From Clitopilus passeckerianus (Eukaryota; Basidiomycota; Agaricomycetes; Agaricales; Entolomataceae), in NCBI GenBank assembly GCA_944990035.1, contig CALYLX010000098.1, forward strand, positions 372,001-436,000: a stretch of DNA of 64,000 nt. The letters are read 5' to 3'. Made by a program: the position numbers and the translations under genes. The stretch's first letter is position 1. Every line of letters starts with the position of its first letter. The notes under the pieces are model-generated. The model made no database searches. It saw only the letters and a program-made list of their open reading frames with translations, and was not told the origin of the DNA. Positions 1 to 45,407 of this stretch are shown one piece after another.

Positions 1-2660
1 GGGGAAAAGGTGATAAACAACCTTACGGACGAACTCGACGGCATGAAAACGTGAGTATTTCTTCGATTGCACTCTCAACCAGCCTCTAACACCGCAGTTC
101 TGCGCAGTTGTTTGGTGTCAATCACCCACCGATTGGAAAAGATTAGCAAGCAGAACAAGTTTCTCCTGGCACTGTTTCCTCAACCGAGCCAGAAGTTAAT
201 CGATCAATGTGCTACAGAATTCCAGGACAGCATTCAACGTTTCCAGGTAATTAGCGCTCAGGTCCGTTGTCCTACCATGAGGCTAATCAGGTCCCACAGG
301 TCCTCAGAGGCATCCACGCTGCACAGGATTTGACCAACATTCAAGCCCAGATTGCGGCCATATATGGCATCGCCAACAAGGGTGTTCAGGAGCTGACTGG
401 CGAGGTCCGAGACGTCAAAGAAATTGTTGGGAGGGTGGAGGACTCGGTGGCGGAGTTGAAGTCAATGATGAAGTTCAAAGCACCAACTCATTCAGTGATC
501 ATCGAGGCTACCATGCCAGATCCTCCCGAATTCTTCTTCGGGCGCGATGAGATCGTCACCAAGATCGCTAGCCAGCTCGCAAGTGGGGACGCCAAAAAGA
601 CGAGAGTCTGTATTCTTGGGCCCGGCGGTGCAGGGAAAACATCAACAGCAATTACCATTATGAACCACCCTGCGGTGACAGCTCGGTTCGCGGAACATCA
701 CCGATATTGGATGCCTTGCATTGGCGCCAATTCACCCGGTGCTTTCCTGCTTCATCTCGCCGAGCAGCTTCGGGCGACAGGTCAGCCAGATAATCCCCTC
801 AGCGCCATCCTCTCCGCACTTCAGGAGTCCCATGAGCCCCGAGTCATACTTCTCGACAACTTCGAGACAGTATGGCGTCCTGGAGAAGGCTCACAAGAAG
901 AGGTCAAGAAGATTCTCCGCTCCCTCAACTCTCTCCCCCACCTTGCCATCCTCATGACTATGAGATCATCCTTCCCTCCAATCGAGTCCTGGACCTCAGA
1001 GAATCTGCTAGAGGTCGCCTCTGAGGATTCCCGCAGGATATACACAGCCATTGATCCAAGTGCAGAAGGTCACCCCGACCTTGGCAAGCTCCTTGACACC
1101 CTAGGTCATCTTCCCTATGCTGTCACATTAATGGCCACCAGAGGGAAGCGCTCCTGCTTCGATCCAAAACGTCTGTTGGACGAATGGGAGCGACGTGGAC
1201 CAGCAGTACTGTCCCGAGGCCTGGATGGCATGGACCACTCCATCGAGCTCTCAATCGAGGACCCCATGCTGCAACAAACACCAGATGCGAAGAAGCTCCT
1301 TCAAGTACTTTCGCTCTTACCTGCTGGTTTGTACAACAGTGACCTCTCCCTTTGGGCGGCCTCATTCGACTCCGATGCCATCGACATTCTACGCGACACC
1401 GCCCTTGTGGCTACCAGACCCGTGGAAGTGCGGGGAGAAAAGAAGTTGCACATCTTCGTATTGCCAGTCGTGCAGTCGTACATGCGTCACGGACGCATCG
1501 AGGAAGCCGTTCGCCAGGAGGTCTATCGAGCCTGTTTCGCTTTCCTATCCAAGCACAAGGTCCTTGGTGCGGGCCCAAACAACCCCGACTTCAAAGACAA
1601 TGTTCCAGCAATTACAGCACAAGAGACCAATATTCATGCACTGGTCACCCACTTCTCACAACATGCGGGTGATGCGCATTTCGTCGACCCAACACTGCTT
1701 TCTTCTCAGTTGGATGGCCTCATAGCGTTCGCGTGGTACCAGGCTTGGACTCGCCCCCAACCAGACATAGGGGAGCTCGTCGTCAACTTCGCTCGCAAGA
1801 CCAGAGACAAAGGCAGGGAGGCGGAAGCTTTGTTCTGCCTGGCGCACACCCTCTACAAAATCCAGCGGTTTGAAGACGCACGTCGAGCCTACGCGGAGGT
1901 CGCTAAGCTCTATCGCTCCCTCGATAATCACCTCCTTGCATGTCGATCCGAGATCTCTGTGATACAGTGCATGCAGAGCCTTGGTGGCAGCTTCCCAGAG
2001 CTCGAGAAGCTAATCAACGAGGCATACCAACGTTACGGTGGCGACCAGTATGGACAGGAAGCACATGCATGGTTGGATCTTGTCAAGGCCAACACTTCAC
2101 GCATTAAGGGCGGTGTGGACAATGCTGAAGCCCTGAAGCTTTACCGCAATGCCCAGAACGCCTTCTCCGAGCTTGGTTGCCGCAGAGAGGCAGCTGTATG
2201 TCAACAGTCTGTCTCGAAGTGCCTTGCCCACGAAGGAAATTATGCCGAGGCAATCAAGGAATGGGACGCCGCAGCACGTATATTTGAGGAGATCGGATTA
2301 CCTTCGGGGATCTTCCGCATTTCCAAAGTGCGCTACCTCAAAGCGTCTGGACAATGGGGCGAGGAGTTGACAGAAGCTCTCAAGGCTGCTTTGGAGCATT
2401 CCCAGGTGTTTGGATCTCCCATGAACGTCGCGCAGGCATTGGACGAGTTCGCCGAAGTGTATCTCCGTGCCCAGGATTGGGCTGCAGCTCGATTTGCCTA
2501 CGAAGGGGCCCTCGTACAGTGTAGGCGGGGAACGGGGTACACACTCGCGAAGATTGAACGACGTTGCATTAACAATCTCAAGTTCATTGACTCCAAGAAG
2601 GGATCCAAGACCAATGACACAAAGGACGAGATCAAGCTTATGACACCGTCACGATTCTGA
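1..2660 (+). CDS. NLR-type STAND NTPase with TPR C-terminus, paralogue 1 (5' end outside window)
   Basis: Signal-transducing NTPase of the fungal NLR class. Visible exons are 1-50, 108-246 and 300-2660, matching exons 3-5 of the paralogue at 9635-12910; the middle exon is 139 nt in both. The last exon shows a P-loop GPGGAGKTSTA, a Walker B-like strand RVILLDNFETVW, an ILMTMRSSFPP segment where NB-ARC proteins carry their R-bearing sensor, and a GLPL-like LGHLPYAVTLMA. The C-terminal third is helical with TPR-like repeats (EAEALFCLAHTLYKIQRFEDA and following). The N-terminal part before the P-loop is helical. I place intron 2 at 247-299, using a cag acceptor and homology with paralogue 2, so the ATG at 267 is intronic and not a start. 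It is convergent with the HET gene. Known of the family: ligand sensing by the repeats and oligomerisation of the NTPase. Target and ligand are unknown. The start lies beyond the window edge. Confidence 0.85.
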
Positions 2661-2925
2661 TTTCTTTTCATGTACAACTCATATATACATTGCATGCACC
2701 CTTAGTAGTTCTGGACATTATCAATCATCCTGCAACCATCTCATATATATTTATCGATTACAACACGCTCATCTTTCACCCGTCGATACAAGTACATAAT
2801 ACATCGGTTCATCAGCCACAAAATCGGAGTCACTTTATTTACTACTTGAGACACCTTATGGAACTACCTTGGGTGATGATAAGCCTCTTTAAGTTAGGAG
2901 ACAAGCGGGGACCTCACCAGGTTCT

Positions 2926-5900
2926 TTACGCTATAATGATTTCCGTCAAGACGTCTGAGGACCATTCTCCCAGGAAGACAGGGGAACCAGGCACTCTGCG
3001 ATAGCGCGACTCGTCATTCTCGTATCTGATTAGCAAGACCGCAAGAGCTGCCGTCTGCGAGCTGGCCAGGACAGCAACCTTGAAAGTGACAGCCTGTCCC
3101 TCCAGACTCTTGTCCCCTCCAAGATCACTTGGATCGGCGACGTATGTCCATTTTCCCGTCCTACGTGCTTGGGCAGCTGGTTCGTCGCCGCGAACTGCTA
3201 CATTCATTGCAGCCTTCGCAATATTGTACTCGTCTTTGGATGCCGAACGCATGGGTTCTTTCCTAGTTCCGATGTCAAATACAAATGACACTTTGCCATC
3301 TCTACGAGGCTGAACTGTGGGGAGGATGTCGTGAATGGGCAAGGAGATTCGCAACCCGAAGTTGGTCAAAAAGGATGGGGATCGGCCCTTGGTGTTATAT
3401 CGTCTAAGGTCGTACTCGAGGATGGTGAAATTGTCCGGAGATGCAGCCAGGACACTGTTATATGGTGAGGCCGTGCCATTCCATAGGAATAGGCCTTGAT
3501 CTCCTGTCCGTTTGATCATTTCTTCCTGGAATCGGAAGAAAGCTATTTTGCCTTCTCCGTATGCGATGGGAAGACTGATATCAAAAATACCGATAAGGCA
3601 GTAGGCCATATCCTCAATACGCGTGGTGCTTCTCTTGGACGCCCAGCTAAGCCTCTCGCGAATGTTTCGCATGCCTGGGACAAAGCTGATCAACTCTGCC
3701 ACAGAGACACCAGTAATGCGGGAAACGGTTTGCATGAGAGGGGTCCGCTCCTGAGTAACTGTCTTGTCATTCTGTTGATCGGATACCGCTTTCCATTGCG
3801 AATTGTAGAATTTGAGCGCTTTCGGTGCAAGCAACTCTTGGAGTGTCCATCCTCGTGAGAACCAAGGATCGCGGTGAAGGTCGGATACGTATGTGGTTCG
3901 GCTGAGGTGTACAATGCAGACCTTGGAGGTCCGGTACCAGCGGAACATAGAGCGTACGGACTCTTCCAGCTCTGCGCTACTGGTTTTGTCGATGCATCCG
4001 GTATCCAACCAAGCGAGCTCGCATCCCTGTCGAAGGGAGAGCTCGCAGAAGTTGATCAATTTAATTAGGCCCACGCAATTCTTGATATATGGCCGTAACT
4101 TCTTCAACTCCTCCAAGCGGTTCTCCCCCTCCGCTGGCTTCGTTTCGGCGCTGTACTTGTGTATAGCCTCTATGACAGAATAACTTCGCTGCCAGGCTTT
4201 GGTTTTGACTTCATTGATGTACCTGCTGATTCCCTCGGCGGTGAAGCTGGCCAGCTTCTCGACATCCTGCAATGTCAGTTCATCGTCGGACCATCGGTGA
4301 GAAAGAATGGCAAATCCGGTTTTCTCCTCTACCCAGTTCTCAATTTCGTCCATCTTGCCCGTATATTTCTGGAAATTGTTGAGGAATTTGTTGTGGATTT
4401 CCGTGTCGAGGTGGTTCATGATGCCATACATGTCTGTCAACTTCAGGTCAGGGAGGTGGAGGACATGTAGGGGAAGTCGGAGTCGTAGATTCTTATTGAT
4501 CATTTGACTGATATCTGGGGACATATTGAGAACATGCAGGAATTCCTCCTTTGTGAAGAACGCACCGCCGCGGAACCTACAGGAACAGGTCAGTAGCCAG
4601 GAACCGGGTGGAAGTGTGGATGGTACTCACAGCTCGCGTTCATTTGTCTACAACCAAACGTAAAAAAATGGTTTTATAACGTTGGAAAAGCTGACTTACT
4701 TGCTACAAAATTGTGAGTACTTTGCGAAGAGTCGTGATAGAACGAACATACCATCTAGATACAGGGAAGTGTCGACAAAAGTATAAAGTTCACAAGATGA
4801 CAAGAACACACCTCCTGTAGTACGTGTCAGAAAGGTCAGGAGGGCATAATGGGAACAGCACTCACACTCTGTCGGCCATCAATTTAGATGAATTATTTGG
4901 AGACATCTCGGTCGAAAGTTGGTGGAGCCACATACCCGCTACATCGCCGTCAATTATCTACGCATGCGTGGATTTGCAGGGAACACTCACGAACTGAAGA
5001 AGCCGGTCAGGCCGCCTAGTCTCGACTTGGGATCAGAAGCAATCACGCACATACTGGCAAGCATGAGTTCGTCAGATATTATGGTCATTTTCGTCTGGTT
5101 CAACGGAAACGTACATCCTAGAGAGGCAAACGGGAATTGGTCTTGGTTAGCAACTGGCGTGTTTCGATAACCCAGGACATACTTCCTGCGATAGACGGGA
5201 CAACGATCAGAATAATGGGTTTGAATTTCCGTGAAAGTGCCTTACCACCTAGCCGATGCGACATATCCTCACATCAGTTTTATGTGGTGATCAACACGAC
5301 ACTGCATCCAGAACGCACAAACTGATAGGTGGTTAGCATAAGAATTCTATGGGTAGAGGACCAAACTCACGTTCTACGCAAATCAGCGTGTAGCCTTGTC
5401 TTAGGACGAGCCAAAGAACCACGTACTTGCTACAAATAGGATACGTTGATTATTGTCCTTCGGAGAGCAGAAAACAGCAACTCACAATCTAATTCCGACA
5501 TGAGACCTATCTTCAACATCACCCAAAGATGACGACGTACCAATTGCATACGCTTGGCAAGGCTGATTCAGAGAGCAATGAGACCGAAAGAATTCTTATG
5601 CATACCCTCTATATTCCAGGGTTAGAACTGAAGGTAAACAGGCGCAGAAGGTGCTTACTTGCTGAAAAAAGGCAATACATCCCCATCGTCAATTTCCGAG
5701 GACATTTCACGTTGAATAGCAAGGCTCACTCCCTACGAAGGTGTCACAAGTGCTCATAAGAGAAAATTGTGAAGCACGAACAGTTTCCTAACGGCGCGAG
5801 GGCGAAGCTTTTGTTATCTGTTCCTTCATAAATCTCCTACAAAAGCTTACATTCGGCTGAGAACGTATTGTTGAGTCGTAGGAACCGCCTGAGTCGAAAC

Positions 5901-8900
5901 ACCTTTACTCACAATCTGCACGGACGCCATATAGTGTCGTGACGGACGGCAAAGATCAACTACTCACGTTTTCAGGCTAGAAGTCGAATTTTTTCATCAG
6001 TTTCAGTTAACAATCGATAAGGCGGAACTCACAATCTGTAGTAAAATATTTGCACTCAAACTTCAGGTCAGAGAGGAAGATGATGGAACCAACATGCTGC
6101 GTGATTTCAGTCAGACAATGAACGTCGGGTTTTCAGGAGGGGTCAACTTACTTTCTGCCGGAAATTCACAAGCGTCAACCGTCAATTCCTTTGGCTTGAA
6201 TGTACAGTTACTGCATACCAGCTGATCGGATGGGGTAAGTACTTGATTCTGCCGATTTTATCAGATGATTTACTTTCTAATTCCCAAAAAGATTTGCCTA
6301 TCAGAAAGGGTGCGGAAGAGCTAATTCTAGGAAAAACTGACCTCCTGTCATAAATGGTTGAGTAAACGAAAGAAATATGACACGCAGAAGGACATACCGG
6401 GCGTTGACGAAGCTAAGCAAAGCCTCGTTAGAGTCCTGCATGGCTCAAAAGGTGGCGGTTCACGTACGAACTAGTTCCATTAGCTTCCGACGAAGAGAAC
6501 ATAATCGGATGCTCACTTTCTAGTTTTTAGGGCGTCTTAGATCAAACCTAGACATGGCAGTTCGAAACTACGTACAAGCTTAAATGCCGACTTATGAATG
6601 AAAACTCATCAAAGTCTATTGGTTAACTCACCATCTGGATTTCAAGGTGTGTCACAATGGACGCAGTTTCAGAAGGAAGCACGCACGGTCTAAATAGAGT
6701 TCAGTTCACCAATTCCTCAAGCCTAACTTCAGAACAGCGCTTACAGTCTGTGGATTAGCGGTAAGAAGGCCGAGAGCGGTAGGATAGGGCAGCTATTGCG
6801 TACCTTCTGAAGACGGAGCAAACATATTGTGAGTATTCTATAGATAGAAAAAAAAACGGAGGGATAGTCTACTCACGAACTAGAGATTCCAGTGTGAATG
6901 ATAGGTCAACCATCAGTACCATGAATGGAGGAACGTACGTCCTGTATTGAGGCATTAAGGTGAGAGATGTGCAAAAGATATTAGGAAGGACCTACATCCT
7001 GTCAAGAAGGGGGCATTGTCATGTCCTGAGCCACGTGAAGACGAGCTTGGCCGGAACTTACATTCTATAACCGGGCCAATGAGCCAAAAGGAAGTTGGTT
7101 TCCTAGTGTATTGGAAAATACTCACGAACTAAGCGGCCGCAAAGGAAGAAATCACCCTTCTGCTACTAAGAGTGTTCTTCATAACGTACCTCCTGGTTGG
7201 GGGGAGTACTCGTTACATGTCTGTATTCGGTTGACATTTTGCAAATAACGCACCTCCTGAGATAGGATGAAAGAGGGTGTAAATATGAATAGTGACTCTT
7301 GAGTATGTTGGAATCAGGCTTACGCTCTGTATTTGCTCAGTTATCGCGGGCGGAGGACTTAGGAGCACAGAGAACTTGCCAACTATTGCCAGAAGTCATG
7401 GTTTCTCAGAAAGTCATCGAGGCTTTATGCACATGGGGCTCACCATCTATGAGATAAGGCATTAGATGTTGAACCTTGTCATATGATGTAACCAACTGAC
7501 CGTCTACAAAGTCAGGAAAGTTCCCCTATTAGGTCCTGTACGTTGACAGTGTTCTGGCCACGTACATCCTATTGTATGTTTGGCTCAGAAGGTAAATTGA
7601 CGAAACAGAAGTTCAAACATACAAACTAAAGCCGATAATAGGTTCAAAATCAGAACTCGTATAACAAGGTCCTTGAGGCTCACTTACGCTCTGGAAAGTG
7701 TCAGAATCATTGTTAAATGAAGCAATCGGATGATGAACCACCTTCTTCGTCTATAAACATGTCGTTTGTTTTGACTCAATTCGGTGAAAATGGCACTAGG
7801 ACTTACGAATCCTTGAGACTATGAAGTCGATTAGGGCTCTAGTCCACGAGTACGAGTTGCGCTAAGGTACTTACCAGAGTCTATCGTAAAATCAACATGA
7901 GTGAGCAGACACTTAGATTCAATTCCTCGAAAAATTACCTCTAGAACCCTTCGCATCTACGTTCTTGATGAGCTCAGGTCCGATGTAAGCAAGTTGACGA
8001 GACTCACAAACTGTCATCAGCCGTGAAATCAGTAGTTGCTCTAGCTTGTTGTGGGGAAACACTTACTCTCTGGACACGAAAGAGGGATATCAAAGTCAGT
8101 AGCGGGACGATCTGGGAAATGCTCTCACAGCCTGAAGAGGTCCAGATGGTCAGCGAATGAACATCGGTCATAACTGAAGGACGTACTTTTTCCTGCGAGT
8201 GTACGGCGTCTGTTGAGTTTCTCCTCATTCGTTAAGAGTCTTGGTTACCTTCTGTTGCAGAAAAATATGTGAGGGTGATCTCAGACAATAAGAACGTATG
8301 AAGAACTTACGGTCTGGGAGAGAAAGGCACAGGTGCAAGTATTTAGATGACATATTCGGGAGATGGCGAAGAATAGTACCTCATCCTGCAAGGGTCTTGA
8401 GGATTCTGGCTAAATACAACCTTACGATGGTTCTTACCTCCTAAACTGTTGTTAGAACCCGTGAATGACGATTTTACTGGTTACTCACGGGCTATATAGG
8501 GTCAAGCTCTGCTTGAACCGTTCCACATGGAGTATAGGTGCTTACCGACTACAAAAGGTTGATCAATTCAGAAAACGCTAGATCACAAGGGGCATCGTAC
8601 TTACGAGCTATGAATACGGGCGGATTTGAGATGAGAAGTAACAGGAGAGTATGGAGGGTGCTTACAGTCTAGAAGATCGACAGGGCGTTAAGAAATGAAG
8701 TGCTGGAGAGCCAGAGTTCAGAGGTCCATAATACCTGGAAATGGGTATGCTACAAGAGGGTAGCAAGTCAGACAAGCATATCATGAAAGCCTCTCATCTT
8801 TCAAAGTACGTACCCACTGCAAAGGCAAACCAGTGGTGCATCAGTAGGCCGAATCAAGACATCAAAGGCTAGACACTTACGAAGTCTACAGCCTGCAGAT

Positions 8901-9087
8901 CTGAGTTGAGTTGGAGTTCCCAGTCTCATCGACTCAATAACTTACAAGATCTCCAATCTGGAATATGTAGTTCGTATAGAATCACATCTCCGTCAAGTTC
9001 GCGACTTACATGGTCGGCCTGTATACGTGCAACGCGTCAGATTGACTTCAGATAAACGCGCAGGGTGAAAGGCTTGGTGATTACCAT
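2926..9087 (-). CDS. HET-domain (heterokaryon incompatibility-type) protein encoded by about 74 exons, 56 of them single codons
   Basis: The large 3' exon (4576-2926) encodes a HET-domain protein: ILSHRWSDDELTLQDV, then LAWLDTGCIDK with SMFRWYRTSKVCIVHLS, then DPWFSRGWTLQELLAP, the three conserved HET blocks in order, followed by RLSWASKRSTTRIEDMAYCL. HET domains trigger incompatibility-type cell death in filamentous fungi. Upstream, a 17-nt exon (4647-4631) joins in phase 2 to give TNEREL-FRGG. Before it lie 71 tiny in-frame exons and a start exon whose ATG (9087-9085) abuts the first donor. The predicted protein is about 663 residues: roughly 108 from the small exons, then about 90 more before the HET domain. 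The N-terminal region is charged and probably helical; I recognise no domain. The reading begins M-ADH-IGDL-AVDF and has no stop. The start is supported by an A-rich context and by the splice chain ending there. Exon coordinates are in the array entry. The ORF-only start at 4524 would lose about 131 residues. RNA evidence is needed for individual junctions. Confidence 0.88.
4577..9084 (-). other. Array of 73 short introns separating codon-sized microexons of the HET gene
   Basis: Exons in transcript order (plus-strand coordinates): 9085-9087 (ATG), 9010-9018, 8946-8957, 8881-8892, 8814-8816, 8735-8749, 8666-8668, 8605-8607, 8546-8548, 8489-8491, 8438-8440, 8380-8385, 8311-8313, 8249-8251, 8187-8192, 8129-8131, 8067-8069, 8008-8010, 7939-7956, 7875-7880, 7807-7818, 7742-7750, 7688-7690, 7623-7625, 7566-7568, 7501-7503, 7444-7446, 7380-7382, 7324-7326, 7254-7256, 7190-7192, 7126-7128, 7062-7064, 6996-6998, 6939-6941, 6877-6879, 6804-6806, 6745-6747, 6687-6689, 6632-6634, 6576-6578, 6517-6519, 6468-6470, 6398-6412, 6342-6344, 6274-6276, 6219-6221, 6152-6154, 6094-6096, 6033-6035, 5968-5976, 5913-5915, 5851-5856, 5782-5787, 5730-5732, 5659-5661, 5606-5608, 5541-5552, 5486-5488, 5427-5429, 5371-5373, 5319-5321, 5246-5248, 5183-5185, 5115-5117, 5051-5053, 4991-4993, 4936-4938, 4866-4868, 4812-4814, 4752-4754, 4700-4702, 4631-4647, then 4576. 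Introns are 46-70 nt. Donors are mostly GTNNGT, acceptors TAG or CAG, with CTGAC/TTGAC-like branch sites visible in several. Exceptions: a GC donor at 7379-7374 and AAG acceptors before the exons at 6576 and 5541. Least certain exons: 5541-5552, 5782-5787, 6094-6096, 6576-6578, 7742-7750, 7939-7956. Confidence 0.88.
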
Positions 9088-9634
9088 TTTTGGGTGCCTT
9101 TAGAACGTCCAGAGTTCAGGATTTAGGCAGTTTTATCATAGGAGCTAGAGAAACGCCCACAAAGTTCAGATCGCTTCCTCTTCTTCGAGAATCAAAGCTG
9201 TTAAGGTTAGGAAAGTGTAACAACGATAGCAACGAGTCTCGAGCGCTCAGGGCCATTCAATGGCATTGCAGTGTTGGTTTTGTTTGGTCGTGCTTGGAAT
9301 TGATCAGCGCCGAGCGTGGCCGGCATGTCGGCGTTGTCGAATTTTGGAAATTTGAAAACAATGGCAGCAATCTACAGCCTGTCGTCCACATTACTTCACG
9401 TTAAACAGGTTTTTAAAAGCTCTGTTGAGAGCCACTTCTAGCTTCAACTCACCTCCATTTTCTGGAACCGGAGTACTAGGCGCTTATGGTGGAGATAGCG
9501 TCTCAATTGGGTTTCGATGGCGTTTAGCGCCGAATCAAGAAACGAGGTTCAGGTGGGACTTGAGGCTTGAGCTTTCCCTCAAGGTACCCTAAGGGCACCC
9601 AGCTTCGTTTACGACTATAGCCTCCTCGGATCCT
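9088..9634. promoter_or_regulatory. Shared divergent promoter region between the HET gene and NLR paralogue 2
   Basis: The HET gene starts leftwards at 9087 and NLR paralogue 2 starts rightwards at 9635, so these 547 bases must hold the 5' UTRs and promoters of both. I see no clear TATA box. A short open frame across 9090-9404 has no recognisable product and I do not call it a gene. Confidence 0.5.
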
Positions 9635-12600
9635 ATGTCTGACTCACCTTTACACTGGCTTTCTGCAAAGTTTTCGCGTACGGGCAAGAAGGTGTGACGC
9701 AAATCAACCATCAGGTGCCCAGTTGCTGACGCAGACTCACCAGCAGGGAAAGCACCAACATCAACGATCCCATTCTGCTGTAGACTCTGTGCGATCGTTC
9801 GATACAGCTTCTGTATCCTCTGAACGAACACGCACCTCGCACAACGACAGCGATGCTGCAACCGTGGTCGGAGAAGCAGTGGGCTCATCAAGTGCCGTTG
9901 CAATTGCGATTGCCATGCAAGCTATCGCACAAGTAGAAGCCATTTCTGAAGGCGTTCCTGGCGATAGTGAATATGTGCTGGAGGCGACGAAAAGAACGAT
10001 TAATATCCTAAAGGGCGCTGCTGGCCTCGTTCCAATTCCTCTTATGAGGGAAGTCCTGAACATAGGTGTTTCCATCATTTCAACTTGCGAGGTTAGTCAA
10101 TGTTGCATCACTCTTGAATCCATGCTTATATGTAACTTTAAGGCTCTGAACGAGGTCCAAGAACGAGTCCAAGAACTCAAGAATCGAATCACGGAGTTTC
10201 TGCTCGTTATTGCCAAAATAGGCACTGACTCTGCGAACGATGAATCGAAATTTCCCCTTCTCATGGAAGAGCTCGGAGGCCTCAAAGAGTATGTCAATCT
10301 TGTTCGTGATTAAGACTTCTTCCTTACAAGTCGTTCTGCAGTTGCTTAACCACGATTACCGACCGCCTGGACAGGATTAATCAGCAAAACAGCATCCTCC
10401 TGGCCTTCCTCCCTCAGCCCAATCACAAGATCATCGACCAGTGTGTTGATGATTTCCAGCATGGCATTGATCGATTTCAGGTGTGTGAAGCCCGAACAAA
10501 GTTTGAATCACAAACTAATAATCCTCGTCACATTTAGACTTTGCGCAGTATACACGACTCTCAGGATCTCACCAGGATCCAGACCCAGCTGGAGAAGCTG
10601 TACGGCCTGACCAAAGAAGTAGACCAGGAAGTACGAGCTATCAAAGGCGAGGTTCAGGGCGTCAAGTCGGCTGTTGGACGGGTAGAAACCTCGGTGGAGG
10701 AGCTGAGAGCTATGATGAGATCAAAGGCACACAGACATTCTATCGTGGTTGAAGCGGCCATGCCTGAAGTTCCCAACTACTTTTTCGGCCGCGATGCCGT
10801 CATTACAAGGATTGCCGAAGATATCACCAGCGGAGACAAGTCTCGGACACGAGTGTGCATCCTCGGCCCAGGAGGGATGGGAAAGACATCCACTGCTGTT
10901 GCAGTGATGCAGCATCCGAAAGTGAAGGAGATGTACGCCGAGCAACACCGATTTTGGGTCCCATGCCTCAGTGCCAATTCCCCCGGCGCTTTCCTGGCCC
11001 ACCTTGCAGAACAACTCCGCGTTACTGGACAGCAAGATCATCCCCTCCGAGCCATTCTAGATTCCCTTCGGGAATCTGACGAGCCCAGAATCATCCTACT
11101 CGACAACTTCGAAACTACGTGGCATCCTACGGAGGGCAGCCAAGAGGACGTTAGGAAGATCCTTCGTTCATTGAATGCCCTACCCCACGTCGCGATTCTT
11201 GTTACAATGCGGTCCGGGTTCCCGCCCCTCGATAGCTGGACTTCCGAACCTCTCTTGGAAGTATCCCTTGAGGACTCACGCCGGATATACGCAGCTATAG
11301 ATCCAAATGCCCAGGACCATCAGGAGCTCGACACGCTTCTCAAAGCTCTTGGCTATCTACCCTACGCTGTGACCCTCATGGCGACCCGGGGCAAGAGATC
11401 CATGTTCGACCCAGGCCGCCTTCTGGAGGAATGGAACAGAAGAGGCACGGCCATGCTTTCGAACCGACAGGAAGGGATGGACCGGTCGATCCAGATGTCG
11501 ATTGAGGATCCGTTCTTCCAACAAACTCCCGGCACGTTGGAACTTCTGCAAGTTCTTTCCCTCCTTCCCGCCGGTGTTTATGGCTCCGACCTCCAGCTTT
11601 GGGCGTTGCCATTTTCCTCCGACACCGTTGATATCCTTTGCGATACGGCTCTGCTAGTAAGAAGGAACGTCGAGGTGAATGGCGAGAGGAAGGTGCATAT
11701 GATCGTCCTTCCGGTGGTGCAGACGTATATGCGCCATTGGAATATTCCAGATCGTGTCCGGAAGGAGGTCTATCGTCTTTGCTTCAATCACCTTTGCGAT
11801 CATCCGGTATCGTTTGAAGGCCCCAACAGCCCGAACTTCAAGGGCAATGTCGCACAGTTGACCCTCCAAGAATCCAACATCCAAGCCCTGGCCACCGACT
11901 TCATCCAGGAATCCGTCGCAAGACACATCATCGATCCCCTATCGCTACCTTATCAGCTCGACGCCCTTATCATCTTCAGCTGGTATCAGCATTTCAGGCG
12001 TCCGCATGCAGAGTTTCCACAGCGTGTGGTAGAGCTAGCTCGGAGAGTCAAAGAACCGAGACGTGAGGCAGAAGCACTCTTCTGCCTCGCCCAGACCCTT
12101 TACAAGGTCCAACTTTTTGAGGATTCGCGTACAGCCTTCCAGCAGGCCGCGAAGTTGTTCTTATCCCTTGACAACCATGTCCTCGCATGTCGATCCGAGC
12201 TCGGTGAAATCAAATGCCTACAGAGCGCCGGAATAAAGTTCCCCGACCTTGACCAACATCTAAAAGGCGCTTATTCACGTTGGGAGGACTCAAAATACGG
12301 GAAAGAGATTCCAGCCTGGCTGGCTCTCATCAAGGCCAACACATCTCGGATCCAAGGCGGCGTCAGTAACGAAGAAGCTCTGGAACTCTTCCAAGAAGCA
12401 CAGCAGACGTTCACGAGCATTGGGAAAACGCAGGAAGCCGCTATCTGTCTTCAATCGGCTTCCAAGTGCTTCGGCAAGATGGGGAACTATCCGAAAGCAC
12501 TGGCGGCTTATGACGAAGCAGCAGAAATGTTCGAACGCATTGGGTTTCCCTCCGGGATCTTCCGCATCTCAAAAGTTCGCTATCTGAAGGGATGTGGTAT

Positions 12601-12910
12601 ATGGGGCCAAGAGCTGTCGGATGCTCTCAAGGCTGCCTTGGAGCATTCACAGGAGTATGGTTCTCCGATGAACGTGGCGCAGGCTTTGGAGGAGTTTGCC
12701 GAGGTTTACATTCACAAGGAGGACTGGTCGGCCGCGAGACTAGCCTACGAGGGTGCTGTGGAACAATGCAGTAGGGGGTCTGGATACGCACTGGCGAAGA
12801 TTGAAACTAGGTGCCGAAGCAACCTGAAATTCATCGATATGAAGGAGGGAGGCTCCAATGGCGCCGATGATGGCAGGCCAAAGCTTCTGCAAACACCCTC
12901 CCGGTTCTGA
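9635..12910 (+). CDS. NLR-type STAND NTPase with MLKL/HeLo-like helical N-terminus and TPR C-terminus, paralogue 2
   Basis: Complete five-exon gene: 9635-9691, 9735-10091, 10143-10288, 10342-10480, 10538-12910; joined, 1,023 residues in frame. The start is the ATG at 9635 (MSDSPLHWLSAKFSRTGKK), spliced by a 43-nt intron to THQQGK; the open frame from 9723 begins with TTG and is not a start. Residues about 40-225 form a helical region (a VAIAIAMQAIAQVEAI segment, then NILKGAAGLVPIPLMREVLN, then amphipathic coils). This resembles the MLKL-NTD/four-helix type N-termini common on mushroom NLRs, where such domains execute membrane-directed cell death; that assignment is by resemblance only. Then come FFGRD, P-loop GPGGMGKTSTA, Walker B-like RIILLDNFETTW, a GLPL-like LGYLPYAVTLMA and TPR-like helices. 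It is strongly similar to paralogue 1 throughout and diverges from the HET gene promoter. The ligand is unknown. Confidence 0.87.
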
Positions 12911-31852: not shown

Positions 31853-33196
31853 CTGCGAACTAATTCCTATCTACCTTAGCTTTGATTCAATCCAGGATGG
31901 GAGCATTGCCATATTCACTCCCCACACTGGGTTTGAGGATCCCAGCACGCCTGCTGGTGCACCTTTCCGGGAGTCAATCGAGCTTCGTGCTCTTGTCTTC
32001 TACGATGAGTAGTCGTGAAGAATTCAATATAAAGCCCAACTATGTATTAGCATCAGAATCTATCCTGTCGCGAAATTTCTTGTATAATAATAAATATATT
32101 TCGTGGTCTTTTGCTTCCAGTTCGCCTGAGTCGAAGGGATAGCCAAGACCTTCCCATCCAAGGGGAAGGGTCAGGATAACGGTAAATACTAGTACGTAAT
32201 ACAGTATTACGATACGAAACACAGGTATGCTACTTGAGATACTCCAGTCATAAATACATAATAAATACCAAACTATCCAATACGATTCCACTGGTTACAT
32301 CAAGCAATGAGAGAGTAATGATTACAACAACAAAATACGCGTTACAAAGGCTCCGACGAGTCCTTCGGGGAGAACCTGCTTCTGGAGAACGAGATACAAA
32401 AGGATTTGATATAGTTGCAGCCCGAAGCTGCGGAAGAGTTTTGGCCACGGCGGTGGATTCAAGTCTTGGTTGCACCGCTAGATGGGGAAAAGTCAGCATC
32501 AGATGAAGGAGGGACAATTCATAGCAGCCGAACCTGAAGATACACCACGACCGACTTTCGTGTTTGCGGCGACACCAAGTCGAATAATCTAGCTGAGGTT
32601 CTCTGAACCCCCAGATATTCCAGCCCATTATTCACGATGAACGCCTTGTAGGCCCTTTGCTTGTTCCGAAGCACCGCCAAAATGGTGTCTCTCAGATCGG
32701 TCTGAGTTGCAGCTTCTCCAAGGTGATACTGGAATGCATCGTCGGCCTCCTGCAGACTCCAGGGGCCTAGGATAGGGGAGTGTCCACCAGCAGCGGACAT
32801 CTGCAATGCCAAATGCCTCAGGTAGCACCGCGCCAGGCGACCGTGGGCGTCTTCAGTGGTCAGAGAAAACGGTCCAGACCGCGAAGGATTGGTCAGGAAG
32901 TCGAGGAGAAACCTGTGGGCGGGCCGAATTTGTCGACTTCCTGGACCATTGGGGATTGCCGGTGAGCTCCTAACGAGCGAGTTGACGCTCTGAAGATACC
33001 ACTCCAGCTCTGCTTCGTCGAAGAGGAGCAGTTTTCTGAAATGGCTGAGGCTGGAAGATCTTGAATTCGACTTCTGGGTGATATCCGAATCAGCTTCTGC
33101 ACTTGGTCCAAGGGCTGATTGACCGAGATGAGCCCGCGCTATCCAGAATGCGAGAACATCCAACAGGACATCCTGAGTATGCTGCGGCAGCGAGGA
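31853..33196. repeat. Segmental duplication, block B
   Basis: Partner of 28689-30025. Here the NACHT gene continues intact beyond the block at 33196, whereas in block A the oxygenase gene continues intact beyond its left end. Thus each block is intact on its outer side and truncated on the side facing the 1.8-kb insert. Confidence 0.88.
31880..32012 (+). pseudogene. Orphan third exon of a CmcJ/AsaB-like gene
   Basis: Nearly identical to exon 3 of oxygenase copy 2 (28717-28849) with its acceptor changed from ctcag to cttag, ending in the same VFYDE stop. No upstream exons are present, so it cannot be expressed as this enzyme. It overlaps no other coding sequence. Confidence 0.85.
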
Positions 33197-34522
33197 CAGG
33201 ATATAGGTGTACAACCCATCCAATGCAGGGGTTAGGCCGTCCGGAACGCGTTCGCAGTTCTCAGGATCGAGCTTGAGAATCGCATCCAGACTGGGCCTCG
33301 GATTGCTACCAGGAGTGTTGAGGTACTTCATCACGACTGCAGGGTATGCAAAGGATCCTTGCGACCGAGTCACGAGAGTCTGTATGGCCTGTGATGGGGG
33401 CCAGAACGTGTTGTTGAGCCACGAATACGACGTCTTGATCGACATAAACTCCGAACGCAGGAACACCTCGATATCCTCGTCGTTGTTTCGTTGTTTATCA
33501 AGGTCCAGGTGGATGGCGGAGGAATTAAGTAGGTGTCGAGCAAATGCTTCTTCAATCTGGAGGCCACCCCGACTGGTTAACAGGAACTTGAGCGGTAGTT
33601 GGTGTTCTGTGATGGTCTGGCCTAGAACATCCAGAAGCTCCCGCCGATGATCCACTCTGACGAGCTCGTCGACTCCATCCAAAATAATGATCTTGGGGGC
33701 GATGGAGAATGAATGTTGTGTGGGGAGGTCTTCGAGCGGATGAGCAACGAGGCTCTGAACCTGATCCGATAGAGACCTGCTGAATATTTCCGGGTCTGCC
33801 TCGATGGTTTTGCCAACATGGCTGCTATATCCCGGGAAGCGACGTGCAAGCTGGCTGGCGATTGTGACAACAGCAGATGTCGTTTCGTCAAGTCCAGGGG
33901 TAATTTGGGAGAAGAACAGGGTTGCACCAAGTTTTCCTTGCTCGTCCCACTGCTCGGCAATGGTTTGGGCTATAGTAGACTTTCCGGTTCCCGGCCCTCC
34001 TGATAACCAGAAGATCGGTGACGAAATATTCGAAATGGGTCCTTTGGACCAATCATGGAGTTGTTCCAATACGGAGAGGCAGGTATTGGGGTGACAACGT
34101 GGTGCATTGAGGCGTTCTGCAGAATCATGCGATGCGCCTGCGACAGCACGCTTTTCAAGAATTGATAATCCTTCTGCGTGGCAAATAATGAGGAAGGGCT
34201 ACAGTAGCAGGGCGAGAGAAGGAACCTTACCGAAACTTTGCCGTTCAGCATGACTTGGAGTATCAAACTGCTGTCCTCGGAAGGACAACACCACCCATAT
34301 GCCTAAGACGACACCTATTAGAAGGAGGTGAATGCGGCCATCACCTAAAAGTGAGCTTGAGTTAGTACATTTGAGCACATGTTGGAACCTGGACATACCG
34401 AGCCTCTTCAGTGTCTTCACAAGCTGCTTTCTGCGAATATCACCAAAGGTGTGGCAGCGTGGTGATTGAGGACGCTGGTCATCCACAGGTGGGAGAGGTT
34501 TATTCGCAGAAGCAGGTGGCAT
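32322..34522 (-). CDS. NACHT-domain STAND NTPase with an N-terminal membrane segment
   Basis: Exons 34522-34399, 34344-34231, 34173-32534 and 32477-32322 give 677 residues in frame. The N-terminus is basic (DIRRKQLVKTLKRLG), followed by a hydrophobic membrane segment (IHLLLIGVVLGIWVVLSF). The linker has RLNAPRCHPNTCLSVLEQL, typical of mushroom NACHT proteins just before the NTPase. Then come GGPGTGKST (Walker A), KIIILDGVDEL (Walker B) and LKFLLTSRGG (sensor-like). The rest is helical without recognisable WD40 or ankyrin repeats, and a short hydrophobic stretch (LQLYQILLYLVL) lies near the C-terminus in exon 4. The 3' half lies in duplication block B. STAND proteins of this type act as sensors in fungal non-self response; the ligand is unknown. 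The last intron (gttcgg ... ccatctag) is inferred from frame and from block A. Confidence 0.82.
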
Positions 34523-41144: not shown

Positions 41145-44100
41145 ATGAGCAATCCTCTACACGACGCAATCGGTAAAGGGGATACCGCTGCGGTCCAGAA
41201 ACTGCTTTCATCGGGAACGGATGTCAATACGAAGGCCGCAGGAGGTATCACTCCCCTGATAGCTGCTTGCACAGGTGGACATAGCTCCATTGTCGATTTG
41301 CTGTTGAAGCAGGAGTTTGTCGACATCACCTGGAAGAGTGACAACGGAAATACCGCCCTTTATGCTGCAGTCATCAATGGCCACGAGTCCATCTTCCGGA
41401 CTCTCCTCACGCGGATTAGGTTGGAGACTATCGACATCAACGCCCGCCATATCAGCGGATACACGCTCCTCATAGGTGCAGCCGACAAGGGGTACCTGGC
41501 AATGGTGGAAACCATGCTCAAGTGGGACAAAATCGACATCTACGCACGGACCAACGCTGGCGGTAGTGCTCTTTACCTTTCCGCACTAAATGGCCACACA
41601 GATACTTTCCGAGTTCTGTGGAAGCGTGGTGGAAAGAGTATTGATGTTAACGCCCAGTATATCGACAAATATACCCTCCTTACGGCAGCCGCATCCAAAG
41701 GCCACGAAGAGATCGTTAAGATGATCCTCGAGCGGAAGGACATCAATTTCGAGCTGAAAACCAAATCTGGCAGCACCGCATATTATCTCGCTGCCAATTA
41801 TGGCCACGCCGGTATCCTTGAGCTGCTCCTCAATCGCCTCGGGGAGGATGCCAACATGAACGTCAGGTACTACAACAATCACACTATGCTTACGGCTGCC
41901 GTCACAAACAAGCACGAAGCCGTCGTGAAGATACTGTTGGAACGCAAGGGTGTTGACCTCACGGTCAAAGTGAACAACAAAGCCCCCATCTATACCGCTG
42001 CCACGGGCGGGGATGTCAAGATCTTCAGGCCGCTCCTGAAAGCCCTTGGCAAATCCCTTGACATCAATGCCCAATATCTCAACAACCATACGCTCCTCAC
42101 CTCCGCTGCAGAAAATGGCCACGAGGATATTGTCAAGCTCTTGTTAGAGCGCGACGACATTGACATCAATGCGAAAACGGTGTCAGGCGGCATCGCCCTC
42201 TATTTCTCGGCATTGAAAGGTCATACTTCGATCTTCCAGACTTTGCTCAAACATCATGGGGACGCGCTCGACATTAACGCTACCTACATCGACAAGTTCT
42301 CCCTCCTTGCCATTGCTACCTCCAAAGGCAATACCCCCATTGCCACACTCATCCTAGACCGGAAGGACATTAACATCAGCGTCAAGAATAAGGATGGGTC
42401 TACCCCCATGATCCTCGCAGCGTCCAATGGCCGCGACGTTATCCTCCGCCTGTTCTTCGAACGTTTCGGGGACGTCATTGATGTCAATCATCAGAACAAT
42501 ACTGGCCAGACGATGCTCATCGTAGCAGCTCAGAATGGGCATGAGGGCTGCGTCCGCATCCTCCTAGGGAGAAAGGACCTAGACATTGAGAAGAAGACCA
42601 ACGGTGGAAGCAACGCCATCTACTCAGCATGCCTTAATGGCTCGGCTGAAATCTACCGCCTTTTCCTACAGCGATACCACGACGACAAAATCAAGCTCGA
42701 CATGAATGCCCGCTATTTCAACGGGTATACACTTCTGTCAGCTGCTGTGCAGAAGGGTCATGAACCCCTTGCCCTGGAGATTATGCAGGACAAGTCGGTC
42801 GATCCTGGCGTCAAGAACACTAGCCATGGAACTGCCCTCTATTCCGCCGCTCTGAATGGCTGGATTGGCCTATTCCGTGCCATCCTCCAACGCCTGGGAA
42901 GCAAACTAAGTATAAATGACACCTACAACGACCAAACTACCCTTCTCACCGCTGCTGCATCTCGTGGACATGGCCCCATCGTGGACCTCATTCTGCAACG
43001 TTCAGACGTTGACCTGGAGATCAAGAACAAGTCGGGGAACACCGCCCTATACATGGCAGCTCTGAACGGTCATGATAACATCGTTCGTACCCTGTTGGGG
43101 AAGTCGAAAGTCAGCATCAACACTAGATACAACCTCGGTCAAACTGTGTTGATTGTCGCAGCAGACAAGGGTCACGAATCGACCGTCAGGTTGCTCCTTC
43201 AACAAAAGGGTATTAACCTGGAGGAGAAAACCAACGCAGGGGCCACCGCTCTCTACAACTCGGCCAAAGGAGGCTACAGCACCATTTTCCAGCTCCTCCT
43301 GTCGATGTCAAGCGTTGACATTAACACCTCATATGTTGACGGCAACACCCTCCTTTCCATCGCCTGCCTGAATGGGCACGATAACATTGTCAAGATTCTC
43401 CTTGATCGCGATGATGTCGACATTACCCAAAAGAACAAATTTGGATTCACTCCATTATATGCTGCAGCAATGCACAGTCATGCTGATGTCTTCTGGCGGG
43501 TTGTTGATGGGTTGACCGGTCGGAACGCGGATCTTGCGTCAAGAACGCTGCAATGCCACCGCTTACTCTTGGCGGCAGCGTCGCAAGGCCTTGAACCGGT
43601 TGTAAGGATGTTCTTGACCCCCATGAACGGCATTACGGTCAACCTTAACACTCGAGATTCGGCCGAAAAGACACCCCTCATTATCGCATCTTCCAAGGGC
43701 TTTGATTCCATTGTTCGTCTACTCAGCGAAGCAAACAAGGTTGACCTTAACGCTCAGGACAAGGATGGTTTCACACCCCTTCTTTCTGCCGTCAGGAGTG
43801 GTAACGAGACCACTGTTAAACTCATCCTCCAACGCCCCAACGTGAAGCACGGACTCAAGAATCGCGCGGGCGAAACAGCCCTCTATCTCGCATCAAAAGC
43901 TGGTCGCGACGACATCCTCAAGCACATCCTTCGACGAGAGCAGGTCGAGATCAATGCCCGCTTTGCAGGTGGATTCACCTCACTTTCTTCTGCCGCTGAG
44001 GCTGGTCACTCTCGTGTTGTCGAGACAATTCTCCAGCAGAAAGGAGTTGATATTGGCGTCAGAAATGATAAAGGGCAAACAGCTCTTCATTTAGCAGCTG

Positions 44101-45407
44101 CAGGCGGCCATTTCGAGATTGTCCAGCAACTATTGCGGCGAGAGGATCAGGCCATCAGCTTGAACACCCAAGATGCAGATGGCTTCACTCCACTTGCACT
44201 TGCCATCGCTGCCCGCAACGAGGACATTGTCAGCGCCCTTTTGAGCCGAGCGGAGGTTGATGTCAGTGTAGCGAACAACGCCAACAAAACATATCTTCAC
44301 CAAGCAGTCGAGGCCAACCTCAAAGAGGCTGTTGAACTCTTACTCCAGAACGAGGCGACCGACATCAATGCAATAGACAACGAATGCACCACCCCGCTCG
44401 CCATCGCCGCGGCCGAAGGACATGACGAGATCGTCAGAATTCTCATGAAACGCACAAACCTCGACCTGAAGACCAGGAACACGACCAACGAAAGTGCACT
44501 CTACCTCGCTGCAAAACATGGACACGAAACCATCTTCCACCTCCTCGCTCAACGGCTTGGTCGTGACCTGGACATTAATTCGAGATATGTCAAAGGATAC
44601 ACCGTCCTTCTTGCAGCAGCCCTTGGTGGCCATGAACCCATTGTAGAAAGCATCCTTAAACTACCAGGCGTCGATTTCAAGCTGCGGGCGACGGATGGCC
44701 AGACACCTATCTATGCTGCAGCAAGCAATGGGCTGCTTGGAATCTTCAAACTCCTCCTTCAGCGATACGGGGAAACTATCAACATCAACGCTGGGTACCA
44801 CGGTGGGAACACCCTTCTCGCGGTCGCAGCTGAAAACGGACACACATCTATAGTTGAAAGCCTTCTGCGGCATCCCAAGATCGAATTGAACCCAACGAAC
44901 AACTTCGGAGAGACACCCCTGTATCAAGCAGCTGCAAATGGTCATGACCCTATATTCCGCCTCCTACGCCGAACCGAACCACTCGTCAGTATCAACGAGA
45001 AATATCAAAGCGGAAACACGGTCCTCTTAGCAGCCTGTGCTGAGGGTCACGAGTCCGTACTCAAGACGATCCTCCTTGAGGAGGAGGTGGATCTGGAGAG
45101 TAGGAACGAGGGTGGGGAATCTGCGCTCTATTTGGCTGCAGCCGGCGGACATGAGGAGGTGGTGAAAACGCTTCTGGAACGGAAGGTGGAGGTAGAGGCG
45201 AGGACCAGTGAGGGACATACACCGTTGTCGATTGCGCTGCTGAATGGGCATGAAGCCGTTGCCAACCTGTTATTGCGGCAGGAGGATGTGGACCCCGATT
45301 ATCAGACAAGCGATTACTTTTATGAATTCTTTGCCGCACTCCAATCTTTCCTACACCCTTTCATGCATAGCGATTCAACCTCTTCGCCTGCTCTACGCAG
45401 CGTTTGA
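41145..45407 (+). CDS. Giant ankyrin-repeat protein, copy 1
   Basis: Single 1,420-residue open frame without introns, composed almost wholly of about 40 ankyrin repeats of 33-36 residues (for example NGHEAVANLLLRQEDVD and GETPLYQAAANGHDPIFRL). It begins MSNPLHDAIGKGDTAAVQKLL and ends with a non-ankyrin tail YFYEFFAALQSFLHPFM that is conserved in copy 2. Many repeats alternate between a VDI/EIKNKSGxTALY type and a DINARYxxGxTLLxxAA type, which suggests expansion in two-repeat units. No catalytic, NTPase or membrane domain is visible. Ankyrin arrays bind proteins, so this is probably a scaffold or recognition protein; the partner is unknown. It is convergent with copy 2 across a HIT-domain gene. 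Confidence 0.92.
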   Translation: MSNPLHDAIGKGDTAAVQKLLSSGTDVNTKAAGGITPLIAACTGGHSSIVDLLLKQEFVDITWKSDNGNTALYAAVINGHESIFRTLLTRIRLETIDINARHISGYTLLIGAADKGYLAMVETMLKWDKIDIYARTNAGGSALYLSALNGHTDTFRVLWKRGGKSIDVNAQYIDKYTLLTAAASKGHEEIVKMILERKDINFELKTKSGSTAYYLAANYGHAGILELLLNRLGEDANMNVRYYNNHTMLTAAVTNKHEAVVKILLERKGVDLTVKVNNKAPIYTAATGGDVKIFRPLLKALGKSLDINAQYLNNHTLLTSAAENGHEDIVKLLLERDDIDINAKTVSGGIALYFSALKGHTSIFQTLLKHHGDALDINATYIDKFSLLAIATSKGNTPIATLILDRKDINISVKNKDGSTPMILAASNGRDVILRLFFERFGDVIDVNHQNNTGQTMLIVAAQNGHEGCVRILLGRKDLDIEKKTNGGSNAIYSACLNGSAEIYRLFLQRYHDDKIKLDMNARYFNGYTLLSAAVQKGHEPLALEIMQDKSVDPGVKNTSHGTALYSAALNGWIGLFRAILQRLGSKLSINDTYNDQTTLLTAAASRGHGPIVDLILQRSDVDLEIKNKSGNTALYMAALNGHDNIVRTLLGKSKVSINTRYNLGQTVLIVAADKGHESTVRLLLQQKGINLEEKTNAGATALYNSAKGGYSTIFQLLLSMSSVDINTSYVDGNTLLSIACLNGHDNIVKILLDRDDVDITQKNKFGFTPLYAAAMHSHADVFWRVVDGLTGRNADLASRTLQCHRLLLAAASQGLEPVVRMFLTPMNGITVNLNTRDSAEKTPLIIASSKGFDSIVRLLSEANKVDLNAQDKDGFTPLLSAVRSGNETTVKLILQRPNVKHGLKNRAGETALYLASKAGRDDILKHILRREQVEINARFAGGFTSLSSAAEAGHSRVVETILQQKGVDIGVRNDKGQTALHLAAAGGHFEIVQQLLRREDQAISLNTQDADGFTPLALAIAARNEDIVSALLSRAEVDVSVANNANKTYLHQAVEANLKEAVELLLQNEATDINAIDNECTTPLAIAAAEGHDEIVRILMKRTNLDLKTRNTTNESALYLAAKHGHETIFHLLAQRLGRDLDINSRYVKGYTVLLAAALGGHEPIVESILKLPGVDFKLRATDGQTPIYAAASNGLLGIFKLLLQRYGETININAGYHGGNTLLAVAAENGHTSIVESLLRHPKIELNPTNNFGETPLYQAAANGHDPIFRLLRRTEPLVSINEKYQSGNTVLLAACAEGHESVLKTILLEEEVDLESRNEGGESALYLAAAGGHEEVVKTLLERKVEVEARTSEGHTPLSIALLNGHEAVANLLLRQEDVDPDYQTSDYFYEFFAALQSFLHPFMHSDSTSSPALRSV

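Follow-up and report, generated by a model that had tools for sequence, protein, structure and literature searches.

A HET gene of Clitopilus passeckerianus whose N-terminus is predicted to be spliced together from an array of mostly single-codon exons

We describe a HET gene on the minus strand of a 64,000-nt stretch of Clitopilus passeckerianus DNA (contig CALYLX010000098.1, positions 372,001 to 436,000; the window, in whose coordinates all positions are given unless another contig is named). In our model the N-terminal 117 codons of this gene are interrupted by 74 small introns, and 56 of the 73 internal exons consist of a single codon. A first-pass annotation of the window had reported such an array; the observation is confirmed and is larger than was described there, because comparable arrays lie upstream of most HET loci of the same genome. 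We consider it likely that the codons of these arrays are translated, that the arrays grow in tandem, that codons are exchanged within them and that the resulting N-terminus serves in recognition, although these parts of the explanation carry different weights.

The refined model begins at an ATG placed directly ahead of the first donor, passes through 74 introns (9087-4515), enters a HET exon and predicts a product of 646 aa (Table 1). The introns are 46-70 nt long, with a median of 56 and a sum of 4221 nt, and 72 of the 74 lie in phase 0. Donors follow GTNNGT in 51 of 74 cases, with a single GC donor, and the acceptors are TAG (37), CAG (35) and AAG (2). The internal exons span 3-18 nt, with 56 of 3 nt, five of 6 nt, three of 9 nt, four of 12 nt, two of 15 nt and one each of 11, 17 and 18 nt; in the decoded segment MQLIQNFVEDYFR each of the final ten residues comes from a separate exon. 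The intron and exon size ranges, the prevalence of GTNNGT donors and the 56 single-codon exons are as the first-pass annotation had them. Its counts of 73 introns and of 72 acceptor-exon-donor units, all ending their introns in TAG or CAG, were too low, as intron 74 (4565-4515) had been overlooked, there are 73 internal exons, and two acceptors are AAG. Introns 1-72 start from a parse restricted to exons made of whole codons and lacking stops, so that their phase and openness are partly built in; the independent tests of the array are therefore the frame-blind counts and the comparison of alleles. The CTT exon (6578-6576) and introns 73 and 74 were placed manually, with the allele and paralogues as guides. 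This model superseded an earlier parse that had 69 introns and included odd exons.

The last junction of the array was revised. Loci are named here by contig and letter, the focal contig being C98, and the presumed other allele of the focal gene lies on C101. With the junction first proposed, an in-frame TAG is left in the C101 allele and an ATG remains unexplained. This ATG, at 4524, is where the open reading frame (ORF) finder places the start of the HET protein, and it falls inside intron 74; the counterpart of this 51-nt intron in C101 holds the TAG, which would otherwise break that allele. The paralogue models of C155a and C106a have a phase-1 intron ahead of the HET exon at the codon matching intron 74. 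Since intron 74 removes both the TAG of C101 and the stray ATG and matches the phase-1 intron of the paralogues, the earlier junction was rejected. The stop-free path from an ATG into the HET exon that had been claimed holds via intron 74.

The array also stands out when reading frame is ignored. On the minus strand of 4577-9087 the motif YAG-N3-GTNNGY occurs 49 times where the rest of the window would predict 0.45; on the plus strand there are two occurrences. A dynamic programming parser whose score combines donor, branch-like motif and acceptor, and which ignores reading frame, returns 73 introns for the focal array with 53 exons of 3 nt, and the lengths of 65 of the 72 internal exons are multiples of three. 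Dinucleotide shuffles (30 each of two regions) never yielded more than 5 introns or more than one three-nucleotide exon, the opposite strands of the two regions gave 1 and 2 introns, and elsewhere in the window (both strands of 9101-64000 and the plus strand of 1-9100) intron chains did not exceed 5.

Matches to the HET exon were found at 26 or more places in the 64.8-Mb assembly and were grouped as 24 loci, two genes having each matched in two pieces. With the focal gene in the window and the DNA upstream of the other 23 loci fetched, the frame-blind parse places arrays of 11 to 92 single-codon exons upstream of 21 of the 24. C155a has the largest, with 97 introns and 92 single-codon exons, and that of C157c may be longer than parsed, because it starts 38 bases from the limit of the sequence retrieved. 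Pooled over 23 loci, 956 of 1002 internal exons have lengths that are multiples of three, and none of the 911 three-nucleotide exons is TAA, TAG or TGA, where about 43 stops would be expected if triplets were equally likely; the 911 include alleles and tandem copies and so cannot be treated as independent. In 14 of 23 parsed loci an ATG occupies the three bases ahead of the first donor. For C98 the refined model leads without a stop from the ATG across the array to the HET exon, and for C155a and C36b such a path was obtained with a parser that returns only open paths; the phase-aware models relied on are those of C155a and C36b, together with the last junction of C106a.

Individual loci have features of their own. 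The leader CTTTCTCRATATG is common to C106d, C106e, C155c and C155d, with nearly the same sequence in C106c, and ends in a start codon before the first donor. The decoded N-terminus of C155b (L021, with its array at about 278966-282728 on contig C155) opens with the glycine-rich stretch DSVIAGGRDITHHIGGTTIINHIG, which we take to recall amyloid signalling motifs and which has no Pfam match. Proline and glycine are frequent among the single codons of C36a, whereas the N-termini of other loci are charged or helical. A Pfam search with three decoded N-termini returned nothing above the cut-off, and nothing was found in the viral contigs searched.

The strongest indication that the codons are read comes from presumed alleles. 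The pairs are C98/C101, C157a/C97a, C36b/C34b, C106a/C155e and C106e/C155c. Eleven pairs were compared and these five used, three of them conserved and two diversified; the other six aligned poorly, were unclear as alleles or had no difference between exons and introns (C157c/C97b). Comparison of C98 with C101 gives 2 exon differences in 333 positions, each synonymous and at a third codon position, and 242 differences in 3522 positions of the intron interiors; under the frame-blind parse the figures are 2/279 and 249/3541. The 132 single codons of three presumed pairs (C98/C101, C157a/C97a and C106a/C155e) contain six synonymous differences and not one amino-acid change, whereas the intron rates of the respective pairs predict 27.2 changes (Poisson probability 1.5e-12). 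Two amino-acid changes are present in C157a/C97a, both of them within its 18-nt second exon. Splicing constraint alone fails to explain this conservation, because donor positions 3-6 in C98/C101 have changed more (17/288) than the exons have. The decoded residues EFDW, EFIW, EIDW, QFNW or FNW recur near the start in 10 of 23 loci despite differing introns, and the codon order of C36b has a 3.5-residue periodicity of the kind seen in amphipathic helices, matched by 0 of 1000 permutations. Given the lack of any stop among the 911 exons and of any amino-acid change where 27.2 were expected, the array codons are very probably translated, in keeping with the earlier proposal of an N-terminus encoded codon by codon.

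In some arrays the introns are near copies of one another. A tandem 69-bp unit, corresponding to a 66-nt intron plus a codon, is present in 40 copies in C36b (89% matches) and in 50 copies in C34b (88%), and the commonest unit in C155a and C155b is a 50-nt intron plus a codon (53 bp). Head-to-tail near-identical units, as in a coding minisatellite, are thus present in C36b and C34b; they are unseen in the focal array, where a tandem repeat search found none. Intron identity within arrays descends from 0.80 in C36b and 0.79 in C34b through 0.72-0.67 in C155b, C155a, C157b and C36a to 0.57 in C157a and 0.54 in C98, shuffled introns giving 0.53-0.57. The best mean z to the unit consensuses is 10.1 in C157c, 3.1 in both C157a and C106a, and 0.46 in C98. 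Among the best candidates scored in a whole-genome search, the two unit families occur only at the HET clusters C34/C36 and C155/C106. We judge it quite probable that the arrays arise by tandem amplification of an intron-plus-codon unit. The arrays would then form a graded age series, in which amplification is followed by drift of the introns under retained codons, and by analogy the C98 array would presumably have had a tandem origin too.

The two diversified pairs have the reverse pattern of change. In the 69-bp unit of C36b the exon positions are the three most variable (heterozygosity 0.64, 0.61 and 0.57 versus an intron mean of 0.064, from the 35 of 46 units that have the modal length and lie near the consensus). 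Between C36b and C34b the exons differ at 68 of 168 positions and the introns at 289 of 2724 (p = 9e-22), and between C106e and C155c, with 12 introns each, at 12 of 33 and 54 of 517 (p = 1.6e-4). The differences between C106e and C155c include the replacement of whole codons, GTC by AAA for example, where the flanking introns are 7% and 4% diverged and introns of different units 23%. Two of the replaced codons equal the preceding codon and a third equals one two units on (four codons, an observation only), and the replacements fit short conversion between units. Flanks that are more diverged at codon swaps were found in C157c/C97b and C106c/C155d, though not in C106e/C155c or C36b/C34b, and exchange of units can therefore explain some pairs. 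Codon variants are weakly linked to variants of the neighbouring introns, and in five of the six arrays tested, C36a being the exception, the linkage reaches significance on at least one side. Identity of adjacent codons gives no general rule, because among 16 arrays tested an excess appeared only in C157b and C155b, and C155a had a deficit. For the two presumed allele pairs concerned, the comparison suggests a hypervariable N-terminus.

The full explanation that we consider likely is as follows. Small spliceosomal introns following mostly every codon would be removed one by one, and the N-terminus translated codon by codon. Splicing by intron definition, the usual mode for short fungal introns, is plausible here. 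The array would grow by tandem amplification of a 69- or 53-bp minisatellite composed of one intron and one codon, and gain or loss of a unit would add or remove one amino acid in frame. Young arrays would resemble minisatellites; in older ones the codons would be held by purifying selection as the introns drift until none are alike. In young or changing arrays codons would be swapped with their flanking introns kept, most likely by short conversion between units, aided by near-identical splice-site flanks, and selection would favour new N-termini. Retention of a single intron leads to a premature stop for 71 of the 74 focal introns, and 71 of the 73 internal exons can be skipped in frame. As retention stops translation and skipping stays in frame, missplicing would silence the gene or slightly shorten the protein.

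The weakest step of this explanation concerns the role of the N-terminus, which would be a variable segment for sensing or partner binding on a HET cell-death protein, encoded in a non-self recognition cluster next to NLR genes. HET domains trigger cell death in fungi and are remote kin of TIR domains, as described in PMC9815663. We propose a recognition role because of this cell-death function, the NLR-type neighbours of the gene and the parallel with Podospora het-d/het-e set out below; such a role is possible, and we rate it slightly short of an even chance. That the spliced codon array amounts to a new architecture, an evolvable recognition segment whose variable part is written one amino acid per repeat, we regard as evenly balanced.

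Several observations weigh against this explanation or parts of it. Splicing and translation of the array are predicted here from genomic DNA, and the alleles are presumed from similarity or from matching order on two contigs. Three of the 24 loci lack an array, C13 and C113 with 4 introns and one 3-nt exon each and C26 with 1 intron. For C36a (L013) the phase-aware model finds no open path to the HET exon, and this locus may therefore be broken or wrongly modelled; eight other phase-aware models, C98 included, rely on odd-length small exons that compensate each other. Protein searches with two decoded N-termini, the orthologue comparison that the first-pass annotation had looked to, found no match; N-termini of this kind are easily overlooked in automatic annotation. 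Significant helical periodicity is confined to C36b and, with windowing, C155a (3/300); it does not show in the 9 further arrays tested, and C34b falls below nearly all its permutations. The introns of C98 are mutually no more alike than shuffled ones (0.538 vs 0.535) and barely resemble the unit consensuses (mean z at most 0.46), and the tandem origin of this array is argued by analogy because no repeat is visible in it. Clean codon diversification is confined to two presumed allele pairs; in C157c/C97b exon and intron rates are equal, and the changed codons have more diverged flanks.

An alternative origin, which we think unlikely, is that an ordinary exon came first and was invaded by introners or through reverse splicing, with mobile intron copies settling at nearly every codon boundary. 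The young arrays do pair near-identical introns with diverse codons, their codon-intron linkage is weak, and introner-like elements exist in fungi (PMC4457414). Such an invasion would nevertheless need insertions at nearly every boundary and almost always in phase 0, and the presumed alleles C36b and C34b carry 46 and 56 single-codon units. The linkage that is significant in all of the six arrays but C36a is as expected if codon and intron are copied together, and the restriction of the two unit families to these HET clusters, among the best candidates scored, also speaks against mobile copies.

It is likewise improbable that the array is mainly a throttle whose roughly 74 splicing events keep a self-killing protein rare or tied to healthy splicing, and that the peptide matters little. 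The premature stops that follow from retention of most single introns suit this idea, as does simple arithmetic: if each intron is removed with 97% efficiency, all of them would be gone from only about 10% of transcripts. The strong purifying selection on the amino acids in three presumed pairs would be needless for a pure throttle, however, and the array varies from 11 to 92 single-codon exons over the 21 loci and is missing from C13, C113 and C26. A throttle may operate alongside the explanation that we prefer.

Less probable still is a non-coding 5' region, either an intron array or a single long composite intron, whose splice sites are used stepwise or not at all, with the protein starting at the HET exon. 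The ORF finder's choice of ATG 4524 agrees with it, as do the 120 listed database relatives, 33 of which start at the exon border and 60 further inside, and the array has so far been read in DNA. Yet ATG 4524 lies within a typical intron, C106a has no ATG at the matching HET exon start, and a non-coding array would account neither for the stop-free single-codon exons nor for the amino-acid changes missing from the conserved pairs. Chance and assembly artefact are rejected, by the shuffles, which gave no more than 5 introns, and by recurrence of the design at 21 loci, on several contigs and in both members of presumed allele pairs.

The HET exon itself matches Pfam HET PF06985 with 34.4 bits against a cut-off of 22.5 (E 3.4e-8), the best stretch covering only profile positions 41-89 of 146. 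Among 8000 candidates scored, 2633 database relatives reached E <= 0.001; the 120 listed carry PF06985, and those named include the Agaricomycetes Cyathus, Galerina and Flammula. Twelve of the 120 extend at least 10 residues upstream of the query start, and some public HET relatives may lack their N-termini for the same reason, an array missed in annotation. The focal gene has an nSTAND1-TPR ORF on both sides, the arrangement of an effector adjoining an NLR-type gene. A further NACHT/NPHP3_N-type ORF lies at 32519-34069 (minus strand) and, with the two nSTAND1-TPR ORFs, makes the window rich in NLR-type genes. Elsewhere two convergent uninterrupted ORFs encode very many ankyrin repeats, at 41145-45407 on the plus strand (1420 aa) and 46957-51261 on the minus strand (1434 aa).

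Table 1. Features of the focal HET gene and its NLR-type neighbours, in window coordinates
Feature	Position	Strand	Basis
Start codon ATG, first donor directly after	9085..9087	-	Refined model
Array of 74 introns and 73 internal exons (56 single codons)	4515..9084	-	Model, frame-blind parse, allele divergence
21 single-codon exons in a row, AGC (7690-7688) to TTC (6470-6468), after introns 22-42	6468..7690	-	Model
14 single-codon exons in a row, ATT to CAA, after introns 58-71	4700..5488	-	Model
17-nt exon closing the array	4631..4647	-	Model; a 16-nt exon precedes the last intron in the C155a and C106a models
Intron 73, phase 2	4577..4630	-	Model
11-nt exon	4566..4576	-	Model
Intron 74, phase 1, 51 nt in both alleles; contains false HET start ATG 4524	4515..4565	-	Model
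HET exon including stop codon	2926..4514	-	Pfam HET PF06985 and homologues
NLR-type ORF, nSTAND1/NACHT and TPR	10541..12910	+	Domain matches
NLR-type ORF, nSTAND1 and TPR (NACHT below cut-off), convergent with HET gene	267..2660	+	Domain matches

If confirmed in transcripts, the arrays would mean that the spliceosome handles tens of consecutive 3-nt exons accurately, which would test the limits of exon and intron recognition. If the proposed origin is true, they would be a direct case of large-scale intron gain via tandem duplication, and a single genome would contain arrays of graded age. A self-recognition gene could then alter its product one amino acid at a time through repeat dynamics, unequal exchange and short conversions editing the protein codon by codon and always in frame, and in-frame exon skipping could give protein variants from one gene. 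The N-termini of a whole gene family could also be missing from fungal annotations.

Among the matches listed in open PMC text, to which subscription papers and most preprints do not belong, there was no description of consecutive single-codon exons, which agrees with their having been called undescribed, or of an intron-plus-codon minisatellite. Very small exons as such are on record, with a 1-nt exon in Arabidopsis APC11 (PMC4674806), another in Fusarium CYP621A (PMC12940212) and the Xlr2 microexon in Trichoderma (PMC11121469). These indicate that the spliceosome can include exons down to 1 nt; as these sources present them, each is a single tiny exon in an otherwise ordinary gene and not one of dozens in a row. 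The micro-exon genes (MEGs) of schistosomes share with the HET arrays many tiny exons, mostly multiples of three, that are hard for automatic annotation, but are described as having 10-20 very short exons, mostly of 15 bp (range 6-81 bp in the body of the paper and 3-81 bp in its abstract), between introns of 0.1-5 kb (PMC10526429). The HET arrays have up to 92 single-codon exons, introns of about 50-66 nt and, in some paralogues, a tandem repeat. The focal model would count as a micro-exon gene in the general sense, with coding supported by selection; with introns of 46-70 nt and exons mostly of 3 nt, it falls outside the schistosome MEG superfamily, whose products are secreted.

Stwintrons are likewise packed fungal introns removed in succession, but they are nested, as PMC9024468 describes them, whereas the introns of the HET arrays lie side by side with a codon between them. 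Introner-like elements resemble the young arrays in being near-identical multiplied introns that become indistinguishable from ordinary ones in time; in the account of PMC4457414 they spread to unrelated genes, whereas the HET introns form tandem arrays in one gene family. Work cited in that paper puts other kinds of intron duplication in Zymoseptoria, within-gene tandem duplication included, at less than 1% of single intron gains. In function, the nearest counterpart is the WD40 repeat region of the Podospora HNWD genes het-d and het-e, for which PMC12222747 describes tandem repeats homogenised within the gene by concerted evolution, hypervariable sites under diversifying selection and allelic differences in repeat number. 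Both systems place tandem repeats in a fungal non-self recognition gene, but the HNWD repeat encodes a WD40 unit, whereas the repeat of the HET arrays is about 95% intron and encodes one amino acid.

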